From Candidatus Manganitrophus noduliformans (GTDB lineage Bacteria; Nitrospirota; Nitrospiria; SBBL01; Manganitrophaceae), in contig NZ_VTOW01000001.1 in the NCBI RefSeq assembly GCF_012184425.1, positions 868,001 through 932,000 of the forward strand: a stretch of DNA of 64,000 nt. Direction: 5' to 3'. A model generated the notes under the pieces. That model searched no databases, was not told where the DNA came from, and was given only the letters and a program-made list of their open reading frames with translations. Below, one piece after another: positions 1 through 12,610 of this stretch (position 1 is its first letter; the number at the start of each line of letters is the position of its first letter). Made by a program: the position numbers and the translations under genes.

Positions 1-1392
1 TGTCTTGCTAAGATAAGACCGAATCATTTCGGCGAACTCGTGAATGCGATTATCGGAGATTTTTTTGCTATCTCGAACGCCGGCATCAGCAAGTTTTTTC
101 TCGGTAACTGGGTCAAGAAACACACCTGCGACAACTAGTGGACCAAAGTAGTCTCCCTTGCCAGATTCATCCGTTCCTATGTAGCCGTTGTGTTCCGGGC
201 TCTTTGCCTCTACATGAACGGCACTCGATATAGATTGTTTGGTGGATGGCTTTTGGGGAAGATTCTGGTCTGTATAGCCATATTTGACGAGAATGTTATA
301 AGCATCCTTCATGCAGGACTTAATTTCACCGATCCTATTTTTTGCATCACTTAATGAGCGGACAGAGATGATGCCCTGCTCAGCAACAGGATCGGAGTGC
401 ATTTCCTTGCACCTGATGCCATCCCATATCGAAATTAGTTTCTCTATCACGTACCCGGATCGGAGTTTGTCTTTAATATATTTCTCAAATTTCCTATTCC
501 GGAGAGCATTTCCTATTTTTGATATATTCGGATCGTCTCTATATTCTTCTAGTGTAAAGAACTTTTTTTCAATCATCAGTTTAATTACAAAACCTTCAAA
601 AACTTTCGCATAGATCGCAACAAGAAAGTTGTATTCTGGAAGCGTTTTGGACTGACCCTCTAAAATCTCTGTAAGGGCATCTCCAGTAATAAACGATTGT
701 TGATCATTCTTAGAAAGGTAATGAAAGTATTCATTAGGTTTTGCTTCTGCGGCAGCGAGCGCCTTTTCGAGTACACCGCTATCTTTGATGATTTCGTTCT
801 GAACCATTTCCTGGCTGCCTTCGGGTACGTAAAGCAATGCTCGCTCTTCGGGAGAAAGCGGTTTTATCTCATCGATAATGTCAACAACTCGATCTACCAG
901 ATCAGAATAGCCGCCTTGCAGTAATAAAGTACCTGTGGAAAATTGAGTAATCGTGAGCTCATTTCCGTCAAAGAGGATTTTTACGAGATAATCCATATGG
1001 CTTTGCTTGGGATATTCCGTCAAAGTAAATTTTTCTACGTTGAGAGAATCCTTAATTGCTTGTCGTGCGTTCTTGTCCGCTACTGTAATTGATGCGTGGA
1101 TTGGAATGAGTTTCGCGCTGGGGCTCTTGGTCGATGAAAGAAGCTTCATAAGAGATGTTTTCTTATCCTCGGGCATTTTTTCAATAACGATCTTCGACGA
1201 TAGACCCCTCTTACGGTTATAGTACAACACGATTGCTATCGCTTGGTTGTCCGCTGTGCCATGAAGTTTGAGGCCTGTGCCCTGGTTCACTTCCTCTTCG
1301 CCCGTAATGACTATGCCGATTTGCTCACAAGCTGCTCTAAGTTCTGAGGGAGCTGAACTAACGGGACGAACAAACTCGATCGAAGAAGCCAT
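1..1392 (-). CDS. RnlA-like HEPN ribonuclease fused to an RNase HIII-type domain (C-terminus beyond left edge)
   Basis: Read by hand on the minus strand: ATG at 1392-1390, an AAGGAGAT ribosome site about 10 bases upstream, then 464 codons without a stop to base 1, so the C-terminus is outside the window. Residues about 100-180 look like the TBP-like fold found at the start of RNase HIII and RnlA proteins (TLLLQGGY, 155-162). Residues about 200-380 form a helical region with R327-C-K-E-M-H332, which fits the HEPN ribonuclease motif R-X4-6-H. Residues 405-418 carry the RNase HIII signature GTDESGKGDYFGP with catalytic D408 and E409, followed by DSKKIS near 441. E. coli RnlA is a HEPN mRNA-cleaving toxin active against phage T4, and host RNase HI is reported to stimulate it; here both activities would sit in one chain. 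No RnlB-like antitoxin is seen upstream; one could lie left of the window. The gene is visibly AT-richer than its neighbours, suggesting transfer. Domain assignment is fairly sure; the toxin or defence role is inferred. Confidence 0.82.
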   Translation of the reverse strand, partial: MASSIEFVRPVSSAPSELRAACEQIGIVITGEEEVNQGTGLKLHGTADNQAIAIVLYYNRKRGLSSKIVIEKMPEDKKTSLMKLLSSTKSPSAKLIPIHASITVADKNARQAIKDSLNVEKFTLTEYPKQSHMDYLVKILFDGNELTITQFSTGTLLLQGGYSDLVDRVVDIIDEIKPLSPEERALLYVPEGSQEMVQNEIIKDSGVLEKALAAAEAKPNEYFHYLSKNDQQSFITGDALTEILEGQSKTLPEYNFLVAIYAKVFEGFVIKLMIEKKFFTLEEYRDDPNISKIGNALRNRKFEKYIKDKLRSGYVIEKLISIWDGIRCKEMHSDPVAEQGIISVRSLSDAKNRIGEIKSCMKDAYNILVKYGYTDQNLPQKPSTKQSISSAVHVEAKSPEHNGYIGTDESGKGDYFGPLVVAGVFLDPVTEKKLADAGVRDSKKISDNRIHEFAEMIRSYLSKT

Positions 1393-1515
1393 TTTCTTTG
1401 TATCTCCTTAATGGGTGTCCCATTTTGTCTCTTTTTTACCTCGTACGGTTTCTACCCTCTTGGCTGATACTACTTTCAGCCTGTCTCAATCGCCGACTCA
1501 CCGTTGAATAATATC

Positions 1516-2272
1516 TCAATCAAGATGTTTGAGAACGACATAGGAAATACCGATATTACTCGCATCGGTGACCTTGAAGCGCGCCCCCTTGAATCCAAAG
1601 GTCTCTCCTTCTGAGAAGTCGTAGGTTACCTCTTGTGAATAGGCCGGCCGTGCAAAATCGTCCTTGAACTCCCGATATAGCAACTTGATAGAGTTGCCTG
1701 ATCGTCCATTGTAGATCAATTCCTTTCTGAAACTGCCTTGTTCCCATTCAACTTTGGTTGCAGTGATGTACTTGATTGAAGGATCCGGCTCTGCTACTGG
1801 CAGATCCGAGAACGGCGAGTGATAATAATACGCAGGAGGTTTATCCTGCCCCTGGACCAATATCCCGCCACGAATGATGGGTTTTTGTTTTGAGAAGAGC
1901 TCTCGAATATCTCCTGTATTTTCCAATGTAGGAGGCGTAAGTGATTGGTAGAACACGCCGGAACCATCCTCTGTGTAACCTGCTGCCACTAGTTTTCCAA
2001 CTGGAATTTTCAGCGTGCGTGGATCAAGCGGAGTCAACATCACACTGTGGATTACAGGTTCGGCCAGTTCGATTGCGGGCCGTGTATAAATATTTTCCGT
2101 AGCAATCATTGCTTCACCCACCTCAGCTGTGGCCGGGGCATTGAGTTTCGGAACCTGAACCGCCGCTGCCTTGGGCTGAAAATGGGAGAATGGAAGTGAC
2201 CTTACCTGCACAGCCTGTTTGAACAAGAGACAGAAACCCCATTAATGCGATTGCCACAATGCCTCTCGACAT
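1516..2272 (-). CDS. Putative lipoprotein of unknown function, apparently frameshifted
   Basis: Two overlapping minus-strand frames make one sensible gene. ATG at 2272-2270 follows AGGAG by 8 bases and encodes a hydrophobic leader ending LVQTGC, a plausible lipobox with the Cys at residue 21. That frame stops at 2125-2123. The adjacent frame is open from about 2226 to the TGA at 1516 and contains the rest of a roughly 230-residue protein ending YVVLKHLD. Its only available start is a TTG lying inside the signal-peptide coding region and without a ribosome site. A one-base indel somewhere between about 2125 and 2225 would join them. I do not recognise the family; the mature part is rich in beta-prone segments and polar residues. 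It could be a real pseudogene or a base-calling error. It lies upstream of the HEPN-RNase H gene on the same strand, 123 bases away, but nothing shows a functional link. Confidence 0.5.
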
Positions 2273-2411
2273 CTGCCCCACTCCTGTTTTAGCCCACATT
2301 GAATTTTAAGCAGAGAATGCCAATACCACCCAGCATCTAAATAGGCAGAAATATTTCCGCCTTTTTTTACAGACTTTTTCTGTCTATCTCCTGTACATCA
2401 TCCCAAGCAAT

Positions 2412-3753: not shown

Positions 3754-4635
3754 TCATTGTTTGTAAACCGCCGCGAACTCCTCCGCGAAGGCTTCGAACG
3801 AGGTCGGCGTCGTGTTCTTTGCGGAGCGTTGCTCGGTCGGCTTCATGATCCCGTCGTTGAAGGCACGGTACATCTCGATATAGCCGCGCGCCACGTCGGG
3901 AGAGAGCCCCATCCCGATCATCGCCTTCTCGGCCTCCCCATACGGAAATTGGACGTAGGGGAGCGACGGCTTGCCGATCGCGCGTCCCAAGATCGCCGTC
4001 GCCTCGGTCATCGTCAACTCGCGCGGCCCCAGCAGCTCCTTCACCGATTTGCCCTTGAAGTCGAGACGGAGGAGCCGTTCGGCCGCTTCGGCGGCGATAT
4101 CTTTCGTGGCGATCATCGGGGTAGCAACGTCCCCCTTCATCGGGGTGCCGTTGATCCCCATGTTCTTGATCATCGGAATGTTCATCATCAGATTTTCCAT
4201 GAAGAAGGCGGGCCGAAGATGGAGGACATTCACCCCCTCCAGCCGGTTCAACCGCTGCTCCACGTCGTGAAGCCCCGTCACCGGCCCGACTTTTTCCGAG
4301 AGCTGCGCGCCGACGCTGCTGAGATTCACGACAAAAGGGACGCGTGCCTTCGCAATCGCCGTCGCCAGCGCCTCGCCGATGCGGTTCTGGGAGGCCCGGA
4401 CATTCGGCGCGGTCAGGGGCGTCGGGACCAGCGTATAGACCGCCTCGGCGCCGGAGAAGGCCCGGGCCATCGCCGTCTCTTCCAAAGAGCCGACGAACGG
4501 CTCGGCCCCCTTCGCCGCCAACGGCTTCAGATGCTCGGCGCTCCGCGCGACCGCCCGGACCGGTTTCCCCTCGGCCAGCAGTTTTTCGACAATCACTCTT
4601 CCGGTATGTCCGGTGGCTCCTGTGATCACGTACAT
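3754..4635 (-). CDS. NmrA/YwnB-like NAD(P)-binding reductase (atypical SDR)
   Basis: 293 residues with an N-terminal Rossmann nucleotide-binding motif TGATGHTG (5-12) starting right at the N-terminus, and R27/R31 placed to prefer NADPH. The pattern VYTLVPTP, NLSSVGAQ and HLRPAFFMEN is characteristic of the NmrA-like family of atypical short-chain dehydrogenases, which act as NAD(P)H-quinone reductases, redox sensors or small-molecule reductases. The SDR Y-x-x-x-K pair is not obvious, as usual in this family. A ribosome site GAGGAGGG precedes the ATG at 4635. It lies between the arsM and methyltransferase genes on the same strand, with gaps of 84 and 10 bases. The exact reaction is unknown. 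Confidence 0.82.
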   Translation of the reverse strand: MYVITGATGHTGRVIVEKLLAEGKPVRAVARSAEHLKPLAAKGAEPFVGSLEETAMARAFSGAEAVYTLVPTPLTAPNVRASQNRIGEALATAIAKARVPFVVNLSSVGAQLSEKVGPVTGLHDVEQRLNRLEGVNVLHLRPAFFMENLMMNIPMIKNMGINGTPMKGDVATPMIATKDIAAEAAERLLRLDFKGKSVKELLGPRELTMTEATAILGRAIGKPSLPYVQFPYGEAEKAMIGMGLSPDVARGYIEMYRAFNDGIMKPTEQRSAKNTTPTSFEAFAEEFAAVYKQ

Positions 4636-4719
4636 GGCGCCCTCCTCTCTACGGTTGACTGGATCGATGGGATTTGAGTGAGTCGATTTTAAACCGATTC
4701 ACTCCAGGGGCGCAAGACG

Positions 4720-5538
4720 TTACCCGTTCGGCTTTCGCGCCCGGACGAAGGCGCTCATGAATTTCCCCCCCGTCGCCGCGGCGATCGATTCAATCGCTTC
4801 CGGCGTGACGCACGAGTCGACCAATAGCTCCCGGGCCTCCTTCATCGTGTAGATCCGGGTCGGAACGATTTCGATCGCTTCAAATCCGACCTTTTTCAAG
4901 ATCGAACGATACCGCTCTTCTTCCAGCGCCCCCGCCACACAGCCGATCCAAAGCTCCACGTTGCGGCGGATCTCGTCGGGAACGGCCCCCCGGACGACAA
5001 TGTCCGAGACGGCGAAACGGCCGCCCGGTTTCAAGACGCGGAAGGCCTCCGCGAGGGTCTGCTCCTTGTCGGCGGAGAGATTGATGACGCAGTTGGAGAT
5101 GATGACATCGACCGACCGGTCGGGGAGGGGGATCTGTTCGATCTCCCCCTTCAAGAAGGTGACATTTTCAGCCCCCGCTTTTTTCTGATTCTCCCGCGCC
5201 AGGGCGAGCATCTCGTCGGTCATATCGAGGCCGTAGGCGTGGCCGGCCGGGCCGACCCGCCGGGCCGAGAGGAGGACGTCGATCCCGCCGCCGGAGCCCA
5301 AATCGAGGACCTTCTCGCCGGGGTGAAGCTCGGCGAGCGCCGTCGGGTTGCCGCAGCCGAGCGAGGCGAGGAGCGCTTCGGTCGGAAGTTCGGCGGTTTC
5401 CTGATCGCCGTAAAGGTTCGACGTGATCGGGTTCCACTCGGCGGTGCCGCCGCAGCAGGAGCTCTTGCCGCTTCCCGCCTGCAACGCGGCCCGGCCATAT
5501 TTTTCTTTCACGATTTTTTTGATGTCGGTGTCGGTCAT
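4720..5538 (-). CDS. arsM: Arsenite methyltransferase ArsM
   Basis: 272 residues. ArsM uses S-adenosylmethionine to methylate As(III) stepwise to methylated, partly volatile arsenicals in the cytoplasm. The SAM motif is LDLGSGGG (78-85). The arsenic-binding cysteines expected in ArsM are present: the pair C28-C29 in SSCCGG, C62 in LGCGNP, C150 in ISNCVINLS and C200 in IGCVAGAL. The 50-residue distance between the last two equals that in characterised ArsM. EAFRVLKPGGRFAVSDIV is the usual post-motif. It begins 18 bases after the arsR stop, so arsR-arsM form an operon controlled by ArsR. No arsenite pump (acr3 or arsB) or arsenate reductase is nearby. Confidence 0.93.
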   Translation of the reverse strand: MTDTDIKKIVKEKYGRAALQAGSGKSSCCGGTAEWNPITSNLYGDQETAELPTEALLASLGCGNPTALAELHPGEKVLDLGSGGGIDVLLSARRVGPAGHAYGLDMTDEMLALARENQKKAGAENVTFLKGEIEQIPLPDRSVDVIISNCVINLSADKEQTLAEAFRVLKPGGRFAVSDIVVRGAVPDEIRRNVELWIGCVAGALEEERYRSILKKVGFEAIEIVPTRIYTMKEARELLVDSCVTPEAIESIAAATGGKFMSAFVRARKPNG

Positions 5539-5556
5539 GTCGTCCTCCTTGGATTT

Positions 5557-5856
5557 TCAGCAGCAGGCGCTCAGAAGCCGGATCAGCTCCGAGACCATCT
5601 CCCGCTGGATGGAATAATAAATGAACCGTGCTTCCCGCCGGCTTTGAATGAGGCCGGCCCGGCGGAGCAGGTTCAGATGATGCGACAGGGTCGGCCCCGG
5701 CAGGTCGAGCCCTTTCTGAATCTCCCCGGCGGAGACCTCTCCGCCGGCTTGAACCAGAAAAAAGAAAAGACGAAGGCGATCGAGGTGGGCCAAGGCTTTG
5801 AGCGCTTCGACGTGGGCCTGTTCGGCTTGCAAGGAATGTTTGTTTTTTGATTTCAT
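5557..5856 (-). CDS. arsR: ArsR/SmtB-family arsenic-responsive repressor
   Basis: 99 residues from ATG at 5856. A longer reading from a TTG at 5892 is rejected because that TTG is the -35 box of the promoter. The winged helix-turn-helix covers about 20-80: helix-turn-helix PGPTLSHHLNLL (53-64) and wing RREARFIYYSI (73-83). The only cysteines are the last two residues, C98-C99, so the As(III) site would be C-terminal and not on the alpha-3 helix, as in ArsR types that bind metal near their C-terminus. It should repress its own operon with arsM until As(III) binds. Identification as ArsR is firm; metal specificity follows from the arsM partner. Confidence 0.92.
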   Translation of the reverse strand: MKSKNKHSLQAEQAHVEALKALAHLDRLRLFFFLVQAGGEVSAGEIQKGLDLPGPTLSHHLNLLRRAGLIQSRREARFIYYSIQREMVSELIRLLSACC

Positions 5857-5892
5857 ATTTCCAAATATATAGAAATAAGAAAATCTTGTCAA
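5854..5892 (-). promoter_or_regulatory. arsR-arsM promoter, sigma-70 consensus, likely leaderless transcript
   Basis: Minus strand: -35 TTGACA (5892-5887), a 17-base spacer, -10 TATATT (5869-5864). The arsR ATG at 5856-5854 lies 7 bases beyond the -10, where transcription should begin, and no Shine-Dalgarno sequence precedes it. The dyad ATTTC-N10-GAAAT over the -10 region is a plausible ArsR operator. Confidence 0.72.
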
Positions 5893-5947
5893 GCGCTTTT
5901 TTGAGCGGTTGTTTCGGGAGATCTGTCTGAAGGAAAGGGGCCGGGGG

Positions 5948-6763
5948 TCAGGAAGGGGCCGAACGGCCGATCAGCCGCTTCAGGCCGTACGTCATCGCCC
6001 GGAAGATAAATTTCCGCTTCGTCATGACCTGGAAGAGTTTTCCGGTGGCCCCTTCGTTTTCGGGGGAGACCATTTTCACCGCCAGCGCCGCCGGTACTTC
6101 GACCGGGTTGGCCAACATGTCGATGAACCAGCCGACCTTTTCCCGGTGGGGGCGCCCCTCCTCGGTGGCTTCGCCGCTCATCAGCAGATCGGTCCTCACC
6201 ATCCCGGGGGAGAAGATGTTGGCGGTGATCCCGGTTCCCTTGTATTCGCGGGCGAGAGAGCGGGTGAAGGCGACGAGCGCCGCCTTCGTCGCGCCGTAGG
6301 CGGTGACGCGCGGGGAGGGGAAATCGGCGCCGTACCCTTTCAGGTTGAAGATTTTCCCCTTTCCTTGTTTCATCATGTGGGGAATGACGGCGTGGCAGCA
6401 GTTGAAGGTGCCGACCAGGTTGACGGCGATGACGTAGGCCCATCGCTTCGGGTCGATGTCGCCGACACGGCCGAAGGTCATGCTGATTCCGGCGTTGTTG
6501 ATGAGGATGTCGATCCGGCCGAAGCGGGCGATGACCCGCTCGACCATGGCATCGACCTGGTCGAGATCCGAAACGTCGCAATGCACCGCCATCACCTCGC
6601 CGAGAGGGGCCAGATCGGTCTCCGCCTTCTTCAACTGCGCTTCATCCCGCCCGCAGATGACGACCTTGGCCCCTTCGCGGAGATAGGCCTCGGCCACGGC
6701 ATAGCCGATCCCCCGGCTTGCGCCGGTGATCAGAGCGACTTGATTTTCAAGAAGGCCGCTCAT
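5948..6763 (-). CDS. Short-chain dehydrogenase/reductase lacking the usual catalytic serine
   Basis: 271 residues. Classical SDR features are visible: cofactor loop TGASRGIG (13-20), R39 after strand 2 that favours NADPH, CDVSD (62-66), NNAG (89-92) and the active-site Y156-G-A-T-K160. The catalytic serine expected 13 residues before the tyrosine is absent: the strand reads IFNLKGYG, with K142-G143 in that place. The C-terminal segment after residue 200 extends beyond the minimal SDR and ends in a basic stretch (TKRKF, then GLKRLIGR). It may still reduce a carbonyl with help from another residue, or may have a different role. Preceded by GGAG nine bases upstream of ATG; a 71-base gap separates it from purT on the same strand. 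Confidence 0.85.
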   Translation of the reverse strand: MSGLLENQVALITGASRGIGYAVAEAYLREGAKVVICGRDEAQLKKAETDLAPLGEVMAVHCDVSDLDQVDAMVERVIARFGRIDILINNAGISMTFGRVGDIDPKRWAYVIAVNLVGTFNCCHAVIPHMMKQGKGKIFNLKGYGADFPSPRVTAYGATKAALVAFTRSLAREYKGTGITANIFSPGMVRTDLLMSGEATEEGRPHREKVGWFIDMLANPVEVPAALAVKMVSPENEGATGKLFQVMTKRKFIFRAMTYGLKRLIGRSAPS

Positions 6764-6834
6764 CGAGACTCCAGCATGAATAAGGGGCTGTCATTCCCGC
6801 GTGATCCAGGTCGATCTCAGTGAAAGGGACGTGC

Positions 6835-8010
6835 CTAACCGGTGTAATTTACTTTCACCTGCGATGCCGCTTTTACGGCGCGGTCGCGGGCTTCGAACGG
6901 CTCTTTCGCGGCGGCGAGGACCACCCCCATCCGCCGATTTTTCCGGCAGTCGGGTTTTCCGAAAAGGCGGATCTGGATCTCCGGCTCCGACAGCGCCGGG
7001 CCGATCTCGAATGTCGGAGCGATCGCCTCTTTTTCGGCCAGAATCACGGCGGAAGCGCCGGGGGTGCGGATCACGGGGGGATGGACCGGGAAGCCGAGGA
7101 TCGCCCGGACATGGAGGGCGAACTCGGAGAGATCCTGGCTGATCAGCGTGACCAATCCGGTGTCGTGGGGCCGGGGGGAGACTTCGGAAAAATAAACTTC
7201 CTCCCCCTTCACAAACAGCTCCACGCCGAAGATGCCCCGCCCGCCGAGATTCTCCGTCACCGCCGCCGCGATCTCCTTGGAGCGTTTGAGAGCGGTCTCC
7301 GACATCGGATGCGGCTGCCACGACTGGCGGTAGTCGCCGTCGATCTGGATGTGGCCGATGGGGGGACAGAAGAAGGTGCCGTTGACGGCGCGGACCGTCA
7401 GGAGGGTGATTTCATAGTCAAACGCGATGAACGATTCGAGGATGACACGGCCTCCCTTGGCCCGAGCGGCCGTCATCGCGTACTCCCATGCTTTCAGAAG
7501 ATCCGCTTCGGAGCGGACGACCGACTGCCCCTTCCCGGACGATGACATAATCGGCTTCATCACGCAGGGGTATCCGACGGCGCCGGCCGCCTCTTTCAAC
7601 TGCTCGGGCCGGTCGATGAACCGGAATTGGCTCGTCGGAAGTTTCAATTCCTCCGCCGCAAGGCGCCGGATCCCTTCCCGGTTCATCGTCAGCCGCGCGG
7701 CGCGGGCGGTCGGGATGACGGTAAAATGTTTTTCCGCCTTGACCAGATAATCGGTGGCGATCGCTTCGATCTCCGGAACGATCAGATCGGGCCGCTCCCG
7801 GTGAACCACCTGATCGACGGCGCGCGGATCGAGCATGTCGATAATATAGTGGCGATGGGCCACCTGCATGGCGGGGGCGTTCGGATAGCGGTCGACGGCG
7901 ATCACCTCGACGCCGAGCCGCTGGGCTTCGATGGCGACCTCTTTGCCCAGCTCGCCCGAGCCGAGGAGCATCAGCCGGAAGGCATTCTTCGAAAGGGGGG
8001 TGCCGAGCAT
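6835..8010 (-). CDS. purT: Formate-dependent phosphoribosylglycinamide formyltransferase (GAR transformylase 2)
   Basis: 391 residues from ATG at 8010, which follows GGAGG by five bases; the family is usually about 390 residues. The longer open frame upstream to 8157 lacks family sequence. PurT is an ATP-grasp enzyme that makes formyl-GAR from formate, ATP and GAR in purine synthesis, bypassing folate. Visible features: N-terminal [15 protein letters not shown], the aspartate-bearing [18 protein letters not shown], the ATP-grasp loop [11 protein letters not shown], and the metal-binding [12 protein letters not shown] near the C-terminal third. Its presence implies use of free formate as a one-carbon donor. 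Neighbours do not encode other purine genes. Confidence 0.95.
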
Positions 8011-8119
8011 ACGGACCTCCGGATGAAGGGAAAGGGTTTCTCGGCGAGAATAACCGTTTCGGAAAACCGGGTCAAGGGGGATTTTTCCCTTCTTCATCGG
8101 GGTTCGACGTGTTGAACCC

Positions 8120-9076
8120 CTACTTCCTTTCCGTTCGATCTCTTTCCTCTGTTTCAATCAGCGATTCCGGATAGGGTTCGAAGAAGGTCTGATCTTCGAG
8201 ATACCCGTTTCGGAATCGGACGACCCAGGCTTTGAGGATGCTCAAGGCTGCGCTCCGCGGGAGGTATCCTTTCCGGTAGCTCTCCAAGGTCCGGAGAAAA
8301 AGGGCCTTTTCCTTTTTGGAGAGATCGTCGGAAAAATAGCCGAGGGCGTGCATCAGAACGTTGATGTTGGAGGCGGATCGGGGAGGGCGGGAGAGCGCTT
8401 GCTGGAGGTGAGGCGCGTATTCGTTGAAGAGATCGGCGGCCGTCCGTCTCTCCGCATTGCCGACAATCCGTCCGAGTAGGCGCATCAGCTTCTGGTTGTA
8501 GGCCATCAGGAGGAGCTTGTGGGTGGCGTGAAAGTGGACCAGGGTGTCCAGGCGGTTTGTCTTCTTTGCTTCTCGAAAACGGGCCAAGGTGAAGAGCTTC
8601 GTCAGAAAGTGGTCCCGGATCTTGGGATGATTCAGCCGTCCCTCATCTTCGATCGCGAGACCGGGAAAACGTTCGAGGACCTCTCCCGCAAAGAACCCGG
8701 CCCCTTTGCCGGCGGGAGCCTCGGCTTCCATTTTCGGGAAGCGCTTCACATCCTTGATGCCGCAGGAAGGGGAGCGGTTCTTTAGAATGAACCCATCGAC
8801 CTCGTTCAAAGAGGTCAAAAACGAATTCGAGAAACGCCGCATCTTCTCCGAGAGAGCTTTGCCGGTGGCCGGCTGGAGGAGATGCAACTCCCCGTCCTCC
8901 GAAACGAGCCGGATCGGATCGCGGGGAACGCCCAATCCGATCTCAACCTCCGGGCAGATCGGCAAAAAGGTCACATGCGGCTCCAACCGCTTCACGAAGC
9001 GATCGGCAATCATCGCGCCGTTATATCGGCAGGGCGCAAATTCAAGACATTTGCTGAGGACGACAACCGGTTTCAT
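8120..9076 (-). CDS. DUF523 and DUF1722 domain protein (YbgA-like)
   Basis: 318 residues from ATG at 9076, preferred over an upstream reading to 9142 because family sequence begins [20 protein letters not shown]. The N-terminal DUF523 part (about 1-150) holds the conserved C10 and C16 and the SPSCG motif near 104-108, which may bind a metal or cofactor. The C-terminal DUF1722 part (about 180-305) holds the [16 protein letters not shown] and [11 protein letters not shown] segments typical of E. coli YbgA. The function of this family is not established; it often sits near photolyase genes, but no photolyase is seen here. A possible weak ribosome site AAGGGATG precedes the ATG. Confidence 0.85.
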
Positions 9077-9276
9077 GAAAAGACATCCCTTGGAAAGGAG
9101 AAGTTTTTTTCTAATGTCGCCCTTGGCGGGGAGTGTTGTCAAGGGGGCTGATTCCAGTTCGGGACGCCGCGCGGCGGGTCATGCGCCATTTTGTTGCATT
9201 CTGCGGCGGTCTGGTGTACCATCGCCCCGTTTTGACAGCTATTCGATCGGGATTCCTAATCAACAGAGGAGGATCA

Positions 9277-9660
9277 ATGAAAAGAGCGATTGGAACCGTT
9301 CTTCTGCTGCTCATGCTGGTCTCCCTTGTTCCGGGAGTAGCGGAAGCGAGACGGGAGAATGCCATGGAGGAGGTCCTCATCGACGGTTTCTACGGCGGGC
9401 TGGCGGGAGCGCTCGTGGGGGCGGCCTTTATGGCCTTCAAAGAGAATCCGGGGGATCATCTGGACGACATTGCCATCGGGGCGGGGGTCGGGGTGATCGC
9501 CGGAACGCTCTATGGCATCGGGAGGGCGGCGCGCGCCTTCGCCGAGATTGAAGACGGCAGGCTCACCGTCCAGATGCCGACCCTCCGCTTCGATCTGGAG
9601 CCGGTCGGCAACGATTTTCAACCGCGCTGGTCGGCCGATCTGATTCGCGTCGATTTCTGA
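9277..9660 (+). CDS. Small exported glycine-zipper protein of unknown function
   Basis: 127 residues from ATG at 9277, five bases after AGAGGAGG, which rules out the earlier in-frame TTG/ATG codons. A signal peptide spans about 1-24 with a cleavage site after AEA. Residues about 36-90 contain two glycine- and alanine-rich segments (GFYGGLAGALVGAAF and IAIGAGVGVIAGTLYGIG) spaced as in glycine-zipper membrane-associated proteins. The C-terminus is soluble and ends SADLIRVDF. I do not recognise a named family. It is divergent from the YbgA-like gene and convergent with the TPR gene. Confidence 0.7.
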   Translation: MKRAIGTVLLLLMLVSLVPGVAEARRENAMEEVLIDGFYGGLAGALVGAAFMAFKENPGDHLDDIAIGAGVGVIAGTLYGIGRAARAFAEIEDGRLTVQMPTLRFDLEPVGNDFQPRWSADLIRVDF

Positions 9661-9726
9661 GGGTCGTTTCCGACTTCTTGTTTCAACCCCCCGGCCAAAG
9701 GGAATCTTTCCAGCCCGGTATTATTT

Positions 9727-11388
9727 TTAATCTCCGTTTTGACGGGCGAAGTGTTTGCCGTCGCCCGGCGTCGCGACCCACTCCGCTTCCTGATGAAACC
9801 CCTTCTCTCGATAGGCCTTCGCAAAACGCTTTCGGATCTCGGCGCGGTGGCGCGCTTCTTCTTCAGGGACGATGGAGAGGGCGCGCTCGTGCCAGTGCGC
9901 CGCCGTTTGGAGGGCTTCCGCCATCTCTTTCTGCTTTCCGGAATCGCGGGCGTCGGCCGCGATGGCGATGTAGAGCATCCCCAATTCGTTGGTTCCGTTG
10001 GTGTAACGCGGATCGAGACGGACCGCCTGCTCGAACGCCACCAGCGCGGCGGAGTAGTTGTTCTGACGCTTGTAGATCTCGCCGAGGTTCGCATAGCAAA
10101 ACTTGTTATGGGGGTCGAGGGCCAACGCATGTTTGAAGAGAACTTCGGCCTCCTTGAGGTCGTTGAACTCGGTCATCGCGATATACGCCCGGTTGTTCTC
10201 GGCGGATGATTTCAAGCGGAGCTCCTCAGGAGAGTCGCCGGGAAGGGCCATGACGCGCCAATAAGCTTCAATCGCCTCGCGCGGCTTTCCAAGGAACTGA
10301 AGGGCAAAGCCGTGCGCCAGCCAGGTCTCTTCGAGGTCGGGTCCCAGTTGAACCGCCATGGCGCTCGCCTCTTCGGCCCACGCCATCCAGGGCATCTTCT
10401 CATGTCCGTAGCGGTGAACCTGCTGGCAATAGGCGCGTGAGAGAACGCCGAGGGAGAGCGCCTTGAGGGTCGCTTCACTCGCCTCGGCCGCTTTCCGCAG
10501 GTGCTCGATCGCCCGGTCATTGTCGGTCGCGGTGAACCGGTTGTAGAGCAGGGTTCCAAGATTGTAGTGGGCAAGGGCGTAACCGGGCTCAATCGTGACC
10601 GACTGCCGGTACTTGTCGATCGCCGCCTCCCGCTCGGCGGTGTTTCCGGTCCGGATATAACGGATATGGTGGGTGTACCCCTGCATGAAGGCCCGATATC
10701 CGCGCCAGGTCTTCGCTTCGCTCGACAGTCCCCAGCGGCGTTTGACGATTTCAAAGGCCATGTCGTCGACCAGCTCCAGGAGCTGATCGGGCCGCTCGAT
10801 CGACCGGACCAGGACCATCGTGGTCGGCCCGTCCCGATCGGTCGTCAGCGTGGTGGAGAGCCGGACGGTGTCGCCGACCTGATCGATCCCCCCCCGGATG
10901 GTCCGGCGCGCCAGGAGGGTTCGCGTTTTATAAGAGAGGGCAAAGAGGCTGTCCGGCGAGAAGCTGAAGGAGCCGAAGCCGATGGCGCCGATCGCCTGTC
11001 CCTCCATCGGGTCGGAGAGGATCAAGAGCTCCTGCTGGGAGTCGAGAAAGGCGTCAGGCTCGCTCCGGCCGAGATCGACCAGCATCGCCATGTTCCCCGC
11101 CTTGGCTGCCGCCTGCGCCTCCCGGACCTGCCGGCTCAGCCCCTGCCAGGCCGTTTCGATCTCGCCGAGCTGTTGGGCCAGGATCTCGTTCAGGCAAAGG
11201 CCCGCCTTGTCGGCCCCGCGAAAGGGGAGGACCAGTGTTGCCCGGCCCCAGACGGCGCGCCCGACCGACCGCAATATTACGGCGGCGAGAAGGACGACGG
11301 CCAGGAGCGCCAGGGCGGCGCCGATGACTTCCAGAAGACCGATGAGAATCCCGGCAAGGTTCCCGATCGCATCCCGTAGTCCCTGCAC
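9727..11388 (-). CDS. Membrane-anchored tetratricopeptide-repeat protein
   Basis: 553 residues. One or two hydrophobic helices lie at about 8-42 (LAGILIGLLEVIGAALALLA and following), then a region of about 180 residues without a recognised family, then TPR-like helical pairs from about 240 to 530, with recognisable 34-residue spacing in ALAHYNLGTLLYNRF, FCYANLGEIYKRQNNYSAAL and GTNELGMLYIAIA. TPR arrays bind other proteins, so this is probably an inner-membrane scaffold with the repeats facing one compartment. A soluble middle part with LVLPFRGAD at 52-60 might be a separate fold. It is convergent with the small exported gene. Function unknown. Confidence 0.75.
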   Translation of the reverse strand: MQGLRDAIGNLAGILIGLLEVIGAALALLAVVLLAAVILRSVGRAVWGRATLVLPFRGADKAGLCLNEILAQQLGEIETAWQGLSRQVREAQAAAKAGNMAMLVDLGRSEPDAFLDSQQELLILSDPMEGQAIGAIGFGSFSFSPDSLFALSYKTRTLLARRTIRGGIDQVGDTVRLSTTLTTDRDGPTTMVLVRSIERPDQLLELVDDMAFEIVKRRWGLSSEAKTWRGYRAFMQGYTHHIRYIRTGNTAEREAAIDKYRQSVTIEPGYALAHYNLGTLLYNRFTATDNDRAIEHLRKAAEASEATLKALSLGVLSRAYCQQVHRYGHEKMPWMAWAEEASAMAVQLGPDLEETWLAHGFALQFLGKPREAIEAYWRVMALPGDSPEELRLKSSAENNRAYIAMTEFNDLKEAEVLFKHALALDPHNKFCYANLGEIYKRQNNYSAALVAFEQAVRLDPRYTNGTNELGMLYIAIAADARDSGKQKEMAEALQTAAHWHERALSIVPEEEARHRAEIRKRFAKAYREKGFHQEAEWVATPGDGKHFARQNGD

Positions 11389-11506
11389 TTACTCCTCCGG
11401 TTGGGGTGTTCAGGTCGCACACAAAGTACAGTACCGGAAATATACCAGAATGAGGCCGATTGAACAAGAAAAATGGCCGCCTGAAGATTCGATTGAAGCG
11501 CCGACG

Positions 11507-12610
11507 TTAGGCGCCGGATTCCCCCCGATCCCCAAGAATATCTTCAACATAGAGCATTTGGACGAGAACCATGATCGTCGCGGTGAGCGGGGAGGCGAGC
11601 ATGATCCCCGGGATGCCGAGGAGGATGCCGAGGAGAACCTGCACCGCGATTGTCAACGCCGGCGGAAGGAGGACGACCTGCCGCTCGATCACAGGGGTGA
11701 GAAGATAGCTCTCGAACCCTTGGATAATCGAATAGAGGATCGCTACATAAAGCGTCGGCATGAGGCCTTGGCCGACGGCGATCAGAAGGGGAGGAATAAT
11801 CGAGAGGATCGGGCCGATGTAGGGAATGAAGTTCAAAATGCCGGCCAGGATGCCGAGGGCCATCGCGGGCTGAATACCGATCAACCCGAGGCCGACGGCG
11901 GTGAGGAGGCCGATGACGATCATGGCGATCACCCGCCCGATCAGCCACCACTGGAGGATGTAGCCGACCCGATTCAACACCGTCTCGGCGCGGCCGCGCT
12001 TTTCTTTGGGGACCAGGCGGATCACCCCCCGTTTATAGAGCGAAGGGTTGATCGCCATGTAGAGGCCGATGAAGAGGACGATGACAAGATTTGCGATCAT
12101 TCCGAGGGCGGTGGAGAAGAAGCCGGTCACCCGGCTGATGATTCCCCCCGGTCTGGCGAACTGTTCCGCCGCCTGCGGGGTCTGCGCCAGGATTCTGCGT
12201 CCCCACTCGTACTGCTCGAGGCGCTGTGTGAGCTGGTCAACCATCCGCGGCAAGCTTTGAATGAGTTGGTCGGCCTGTCTGGCGACTTCGGGGGCGAGGA
12301 GCCAGCCCCCCAACCCCAACATTCCGGTCAGGAGGAGGATGACGATCGCGAGCGACCAGCCCTCCGAGAGGGGGGTATGCGCTGCAAGCCGGTCGCTCAG
12401 GCTTCGGAGGAGAACGGTCAAGAGGACGCCGGCAAAGACGAGGAGGAGGACGTCGGCGGAAACCGCGACCAGCAACAGCAGAACGGCGACGGCCGCCGTG
12501 ATGCCGACGGCAATGAGTGTCTTTTTTGTGAAAGTGCCGGGGTCAAATTTCGGCGACGGAGGATTGGGCGGATATTTCTCCGCCGCTCCGACGTATCGCG
12601 CTCCTCTCAT
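11507..12610 (-). CDS. AI-2E family transporter (PerM/YdiK-type permease)
   Basis: 367 residues with a proline-rich N-terminus, then paired hydrophobic helices at about 30-85, a cytoplasmic helical section at about 105-150 and five or so membrane helices to about 350. The family signatures GILAGILNFIPYIGPILS and the C-terminal GIPGIMLASPLTATI are clear. Members export autoinducer-2 in some bacteria and act as sodium/proton antiporters or have unknown substrates in others; no lux quorum genes are nearby, so the substrate is open. ATG at 12610 lies seven bases after GAGGGACGA. It stands alone: a 118-base gap separates it from the TPR gene. Confidence 0.85.
   Translation of the reverse strand: MRGARYVGAAEKYPPNPPSPKFDPGTFTKKTLIAVGITAAVAVLLLLVAVSADVLLLVFAGVLLTVLLRSLSDRLAAHTPLSEGWSLAIVILLLTGMLGLGGWLLAPEVARQADQLIQSLPRMVDQLTQRLEQYEWGRRILAQTPQAAEQFARPGGIISRVTGFFSTALGMIANLVIVLFIGLYMAINPSLYKRGVIRLVPKEKRGRAETVLNRVGYILQWWLIGRVIAMIVIGLLTAVGLGLIGIQPAMALGILAGILNFIPYIGPILSIIPPLLIAVGQGLMPTLYVAILYSIIQGFESYLLTPVIERQVVLLPPALTIAVQVLLGILLGIPGIMLASPLTATIMVLVQMLYVEDILGDRGESGA

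Follow-up and report, generated by a model that had tools for sequence, protein, structure and literature searches.

We propose that a gene at the left edge of the window (the whole 64,000-nucleotide stretch of DNA that was analysed) encodes a one-chain defence protein, in which an RnlA-like module is joined to an RNase HIII that would sense RNA–DNA hybrids and gate a HEPN RNase. We give this reading a probability of roughly 0.6. Together with the TPR/cold-shock gene that follows it, the fusion is best read as a two-gene, TOTE-like defence module with a swappable effector. Counted in favour of this explanation are the domain and PDB matches, the controls on the RnlA match, the operon-like neighbour, the genomic island, a nearby PD-Lambda-1 homologue, parallel fusions in other genomes and RNase H–RnlA neighbours elsewhere.

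A single chain joins TBP-like lobes, a helical region and RNase HIII

The original prediction described a minus-strand protein of at least 464 residues, taken from an open reading frame at window positions 1-1392 which the left edge of the window cuts off. In the whole genome the frame runs past this edge to 612 residues. Including the sequence left of base 1, it is a single unbroken frame with the same ATG (G000:C1:867557-869392). The domain order is TBP-like lobes (1-185), helical region, RNase HIII (399-610). The features of the gene are as follows.

1..1392, minus strand: in-window part of the fusion gene, residues 1-464; a further 447 bp lie beyond the left edge
L002:9554-11392 with the stop codon, G000:C1:867557-869392 without it: whole fusion gene
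1108..1392, minus strand: TBP-like lobe 1, residues about 1-95, equivalent to RnlA NTD (H-E-E-E-E-H in the model; RnlA alignment)
838..1107, minus strand: TBP-like lobe 2, residues about 96-185, equivalent to RnlA NRD (PF15935 at E 0.03; RnlA profile; 32% with the Lon-type fusion)
238..837, minus strand: putative RnlA-type HEPN (Dmd-binding) domain, residues about 186-385 (RnlA profile and shuffles; all-helical in the models)
595..597, minus strand: E266, on the invariant Glu of the RnlA family (profile and MAFFT alignment)
397..414, minus strand: R327-x4-H332, predicted HEPN catalytic motif (RnlA alignments; motif count)
1..198, minus strand: start of the RNase HIII domain, residues 399-464; the whole domain is 399-610, the rest lying left of the window (Pfam, NCBIfam, PDB)
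166..171, minus strand: D408-E409, first two metal-binding residues of RNase HIII (RNase HIII comparison)
L002:9854-9856, outside the window: D513 of RNase HIII

The N-terminal part resembles RnlA

What links the first part of the chain to RnlA? PF15935 (RnlA_toxin) aligns with residues 126-175 at E 0.03 and 14.9 bits, below its cut-off of 27. The RnlA DBD, N and HEPN_RnaseLS Pfam models have no match in the fusion, no Pfam HEPN model fires, and BLAST of the fusion against E. coli RnlA gives no significant match. Against a profile built from eight RnlAs (E. coli, Paracoccus, Carnobacterium, plasmid LsoA types, viral contigs and one Nitrospirota genome), residues 142-371 of the fusion align at E 1.4e-4; the identity between fusion and RnlA is about 16-21%. 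This alignment places R327 and H332 on the R-x4-H of RnlA, E266-G267 on the invariant EG and LPEY on LPxY. The residues aligned with R327, H332 and E266 are invariant in seven RnlAs, and the same residues come together when three viral-contig RnlAs are aligned with the fusion by MAFFT.

None of the 107 real proteins and 150 shuffles tried equalled the score against the RnlA profile (39.0); one control reached 35.0 through a match to the first TBP lobe of RnlA. When the lobes were kept intact and residues 186-398 alone were shuffled, none of 300 sequences reached the observed score (maximum 35.4). Scored by itself against RnlA, the HEPN region gave 21.7 and its best shuffle 21.4, a marginal outcome that counts against our explanation. 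R327-x4-H332 is the sole Rx4H motif in the 612 residues, and 9% of shuffles of that region have one. Because no control or shuffle matches the RnlA profile as well, and because shuffling the helical part abolishes the match, the sequence supports reading the N-terminal ~385 residues as a distant RnlA. Homology of the helical part to the RnlA HEPN domain, with toxicity and RNA cleavage as its predicted activities, is likewise supported, not proven.

AlphaFold returned a pLDDT of 38 without an alignment and of 44 with three RnlA rows, and we rejected these models as arbiters of the fold, since they are too weak. Both have mixed strands and helices to about residue 176, followed by an all-helical region; in the second, the strand-helix part is laid out as two TBP-type lobes. 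When the alignment-free model was compared with the PDB, RnlA crystal structures made up the top eight matches (E 3.6e-5 to 1.3e-3; the next at 8.7e-3), with TM-scores of about 0.2 and 206-223 aligned columns that may be mostly TBP lobes, so that these matches would favour the lobes more than the HEPN domain. The RnlA-aided model matches RnlA at E 6e-8, a value that depends on the RnlA rows in its input. Lobe 1 is placed by the strand/helix order of the low-confidence model and by PDB matches, lobe 2 by weak but positive matches to the RnlA profile and PF15935. The TBP-like N-terminal region and the helical HEPN domain of the original prediction thus reappear as two lobes and a candidate HEPN domain; no other fold was assigned to the middle region (residues 200-380), and R327 and H332, whose loss across homologues would have spoken against it, are both invariant in RnlA, the family to which the comparison extends.

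The RNase HIII domain is complete and additional

At the C-terminal end, residues 405-607 match Pfam RNase_HII at E 2e-32, residues 399-606 score 194.4 bits against the NCBIfam rnhC equivalog (cut-off 161.2) and PDB RNase HIII structures match residues 404-609 (2d0a at E 2e-27). D408 and E409, which had been singled out as marks of an RNase HIII-type domain, are kept together with D513 in every comparable RNase HIII row, and D517 in most. Cleavage of RNA in RNA–DNA hybrids by this domain is predicted. Since the same genome also encodes an ordinary RNase HII and RNase HI, the domain is an extra rather than the genome's sole RNase H. Ordinary RNase HIII likewise carries a TBP-like N-terminal domain, and an identity of the fusion as such a protein is ruled out by the ~200 residues with RnlA features that separate lobes and catalytic domain. 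A short solo RNase HIII, 55-63% identical, occurs in conserved surroundings in many genomes of the class; none was found among five congeners. At 19 loci, between housekeeping-type genes, the 1.5 kb flanks of the solo gene held no RnlA-like neighbour.

The fusion lies in an acquired island

GC content is 42-47% in the fusion stretch vs about 52-64% in the flanks. Since the flanks are syntenic in three congeners that lack the stretch itself, the stretch is an island acquired at a variable site, in line with the recent transfer that the AT-rich composition had suggested. Synteny with the congeners picks up again at window position 2334. Between the same flanks lie ~2.8 kb in G003 (L093), ~4.8 kb in G005 (L094) and ~0.4 kb in G004 (L095), with other cargo at the site in G003 and G005. 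Insertion at a tRNA gene was considered and rejected, as ARAGORN finds no tRNA gene. Besides the fusion, the island is described by the following features.

L002 about 4350-12334, right part at window 1..2334: acquired island (GC and synteny)
1516..2226, minus strand: 236-aa gene upstream of the fusion, in the same low-GC island, without Pfam match
L002:5907-7301, left of the window, same island: PD-Lambda-1 homologue (DUF4041 + T5orf172; E 2.7e-158)

Only 28 bp downstream of the fusion, in the same direction, lies a 434-aa TPR/cold-shock gene, whose product matches PADLOC PDLC01170 (TPR fused to a cold shock-like domain) at E 2e-24 over 6-432 of 434 residues. A small gene without family match and then the PD-Lambda-1 homologue follow further downstream. 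The 236-aa upstream gene may or may not be part of the fusion's system. RnlB, which the original prediction had proposed to look for beside homologues, is absent here: even at E up to 1 the RnlB_antitoxin model matches nothing in the whole genome, and the TPR/cold-shock gene adjoins instead. Elsewhere in the window (4720-5892, minus strand), a methyltransferase beside an ArsR-like regulator resembles, by eye, an arsenite methyltransferase operon.

Relatives and parallel fusions

Whole-protein relatives were found neither in genome contigs nor in viral contigs, and a second HEPN-type fusion in none of the sets searched, which counts against our explanation. The N-terminal part has no relative among plasmids or phages. 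A profile of the TBP lobes met nothing in viral contigs and, in genome contigs, only the already known Lon-type fusion described below. For the TPR/cold-shock protein, neither plasmids nor the 146 further genomes of the class that were searched yielded a relative. Single RnlA queries of the viral contigs yielded three close E. coli-type RnlAs, other RnlA queries nothing. RNase HIII matches were met on plasmids, in phage records and on one viral contig; the three inspected (Methanomethylovorans, a Microcystis phage record and the viral contig) are ordinary TBP–RNase HIII, and most of the other plasmid and phage matches (Listeria, Staphylococcus and similar records) were taken for host genes. 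In the stretch inspected (L029), the record of Microcystis phage MaAM05 (MW495066.1) contains rnhC, gatA, coaE and a sensory kinase, and looks more like bacterial DNA than phage.

In two other Nitrospirota genomes TBP–RNase HIII is fused to a Lon/BrxL-like domain, without HEPN. The 779-aa protein on PEUB01000009 (G268) consists of a Lon/BrxL-like domain (Lon_C at E 3e-10, BrxL at E 1.7e-11), an RnlA-like TBP lobe (PF15935 at E 1e-4) and RNase HIII, and a TPR/cold-shock gene lies 2 bp downstream of its gene. The second, in G433, is 86% identical and has the same MqsA-like gene upstream. Downstream of it a 69-codon frame matches the start of the same TPR gene and then meets a stop, with ~100 bp of the contig left, so that G268 alone demonstrates an intact TPR/cold-shock partner. 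The TPR/cold-shock proteins beside the window fusion and beside the G268 fusion share no BLAST-detectable similarity, a further point against our explanation. The Lon-type fusions keep the Lon Ser region (GDS for GPS), and their protease activity is uncertain because the first Lys of the GLKEK motif is replaced by Arg. A small gene and the MqsA-like HTH gene stand directly upstream of both (L025:253-1397, L074:2670-3814) and are possibly a regulator or toxin–antitoxin pair of the Lon-type module.

Do the HEPN- and Lon-type fusions form one family? We set this idea aside as unsupported: the RNase HIII tree leaves the position of the window fusion's domain open and does not join it with the RNase HIII of the Lon-type fusions. 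Because of this the two types may be independent of each other. Independent origin would make the recurrence more telling, yet argue against one family.

RNase H also adjoins RnlA-related genes. In G424 a short RnlA DBD-like remnant (E 0.03), an RnlB (E 3e-7, which passes its cut-off) and a TBP–RNase HIII of 314 aa follow one another in this order, with 11 bp between RnlB and the last, which the TBP-TOTE Pfam model reaches at E 0.03. RnlA and RnlB of a Carnobacterium plasmid are directly preceded by an RNase H of the viroplasmin type. RNase H is tied to RnlA as a separate protein, as a neighbour and, here, in one chain. The survey of homologues that had been suggested thus gave no second HEPN-type fusion but did bring up the Lon-type fusions and the RnlB/RNase HIII neighbours of G424. 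A complete RnlA–RnlB pair is present in another Nitrospirota genome (G266, L032:904-1998 and 497-907; RnlA DBD at E 2e-14, RnlB at E 6e-10).

A proposed model for hybrid-licensed RNA cleavage

How might such a protein work? In E. coli, RnlA is bound at its NRD by RNase HI, without which RnlA cannot be activated and RnlB cannot inhibit it (PMC5308261); this is a published precedent for a coupling that the fusion would make permanent. In a 2013 survey, Aravind and colleagues connected the TBP-like domains found in RNase LS and in RNase HIII and suggested that these proteins act on RNA–DNA duplexes (PMC3710099), and the TBP lobe of RNase HIII touches the minor groove of the hybrid (PMC7221094). 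From these sources we infer hybrid sensing and gating of the HEPN domain. The lobes and the RNase HIII would engage RNA–DNA hybrids such as an invader's replication primers, R-loops or reverse-transcription products. This engagement, or the loss of a restraint exerted by the TPR/cold-shock protein, would free the HEPN dimer to cut RNA, and the cutting would block phage growth or arrest the cell. An antiphage function would follow from these steps.

With their exchanged effectors, the fusions resemble a defence design of the plug-in kind. The swap points to the TBP–RNase H part that they have in common as the sensor, which would make RNA–DNA hybrids an infection signal. We advance only tentatively, at somewhat less than even odds, the broader proposal that TBP lobes plus RNase HIII are a stand-alone hybrid sensor, repeatedly coupled to a TPR/cold-shock regulator and to interchangeable effectors, an RnlA-type RNase in one case and a Lon/BrxL-like protease in the other. 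We know of no explanation for why E. coli RnlA needs RNase HI in both activation and inhibition. If the broader proposal is true, RnlA, a toxin–antitoxin protein with this puzzling need, and TOTE would come under one principle, hybrid-licensed immunity. Moreover, a natural fusion sets the stoichiometry and geometry of the RnlA/RNase H pair, so that the RNase H need of RnlA becomes directly testable.

Might the two catalytic domains act side by side, without any sensing? HEPN would then cut single-stranded RNA and RNase HIII the RNA of hybrids, with transcripts and primers destroyed. The catalytic residues are kept in both domains, and RNase LS proteins and other fusions are proposed as two-headed RNases in Anantharaman 2013 (PMC3710099). 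Regulation of RnlA by E. coli RNase HI (PMC5308261) speaks for a different relation between the domains, and the Lon-type fusions, which keep TBP–RNase HIII and swap the effector, are better fitted by a shared sensing or guiding part; we regard independent action as rather unlikely. A role in maintaining the island instead of defending against phage, with an RNase H-bearing toxin and the TPR/cold-shock protein as its antitoxin, is less probable again. RnlA is a toxin–antitoxin toxin, the TPR/cold-shock gene is co-directional and 28 bp away, and in a genome without RnlB another gene must restrain the fusion if it is toxic; however, TPR/cold-shock proteins belong to the TOTE and TALON defence systems (PMC12458937), PD-Lambda-1 lies nearby, and a restriction-modification-like gene is among the neighbours of the G268 fusion. 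That the protein is a genome-maintenance RNase HIII variant which merely removes RNA–DNA hybrids, its middle region serving as a linker or for binding and its R-x4-H being accidental, is very improbable: the TBP-like N-terminal domain of ordinary RNase HIII and the lack of a Pfam match in the middle region would suit it, whereas the RnlA match over 142-371 is lost on shuffling that region alone (0/300), RNase HII and HI are already in the genome, and the gene sits in a variable island missing from congeners.

Comparison with known systems

A gated one-chain defence protein, the reading that we prefer, amalgamates features of several described systems. Links between RNase H and RnlA (PMC3710099 and PMC5308261) and TOTE systems are known; a C-terminal RNase HIII joined to HEPN was not found described in the literature covered, which is partial and in which a full-text search met only PMC3710099. 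The possible novelty raised in the original prediction thus stands, within that coverage, for the exact fusion and not for the RNase H–RnlA link itself.

Like RnlA/LsoA (RNase LS), the fusion has two TBP-like lobes followed by a putative HEPN domain, the aligned Glu, R-x4-H and LPxY, and a tie to RNase H. RnlA/LsoA toxins work with a separate RNase HI in E. coli, have the RNase H in an adjacent gene in Carnobacterium, or carry it as an N-terminal RNase HI/viroplasmin domain (PMC3710099), whereas the fusion has a C-terminal RNase HIII. In the passages covered of the 2013 survey, RNase H and TBP-like domains stand at the N-terminus of RNase LS proteins, and no C-terminal RNase HIII is among them (PMC3710099). 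RnlA–RnlB systems include RnlB; the fusion's genome does not. With RNase HIII (RnhC) the fusion shares a full catalytic domain above the equivalog cut-off, the DED residues and N-terminal TBP-like lobes, two where RnhC has one, and it has in addition the RnlA-type HEPN region between lobes and catalytic domain.

TOTE stands for TPR, OB, TBP and Effector, and RNase H domains are often included, according to PMC12458937. The two genes described here supply all of these parts: a protein with TPR and OB/cold-shock domains, TBP-like lobes, an RNase H domain and an effector; unlike in TOTE, TBP, effector and RNase HIII share one chain. The effector role would be filled by an RnlA-type HEPN nuclease. 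Among the TOTE-named Pfam models, S1CSD-TOTE-2 reaches E 0.056, below its cut-off, and TBP-TOTE has no match to the fusion. Because these models miss their cut-offs though all four components are present, we call the pair of genes TOTE-like and not a TOTE member. The Lon/BrxL–TBP–RNase HIII proteins of G268 and G433 also unite TBP-like lobes with an RNase HIII, itself 53% identical, in a single chain, and a TPR/cold-shock gene stands next to theirs (complete in G268 only). They differ in carrying an N-terminal Lon/BrxL-like domain in place of HEPN, in an RNase HIII that falls in another part of the tree and in having an MqsA-like gene upstream.
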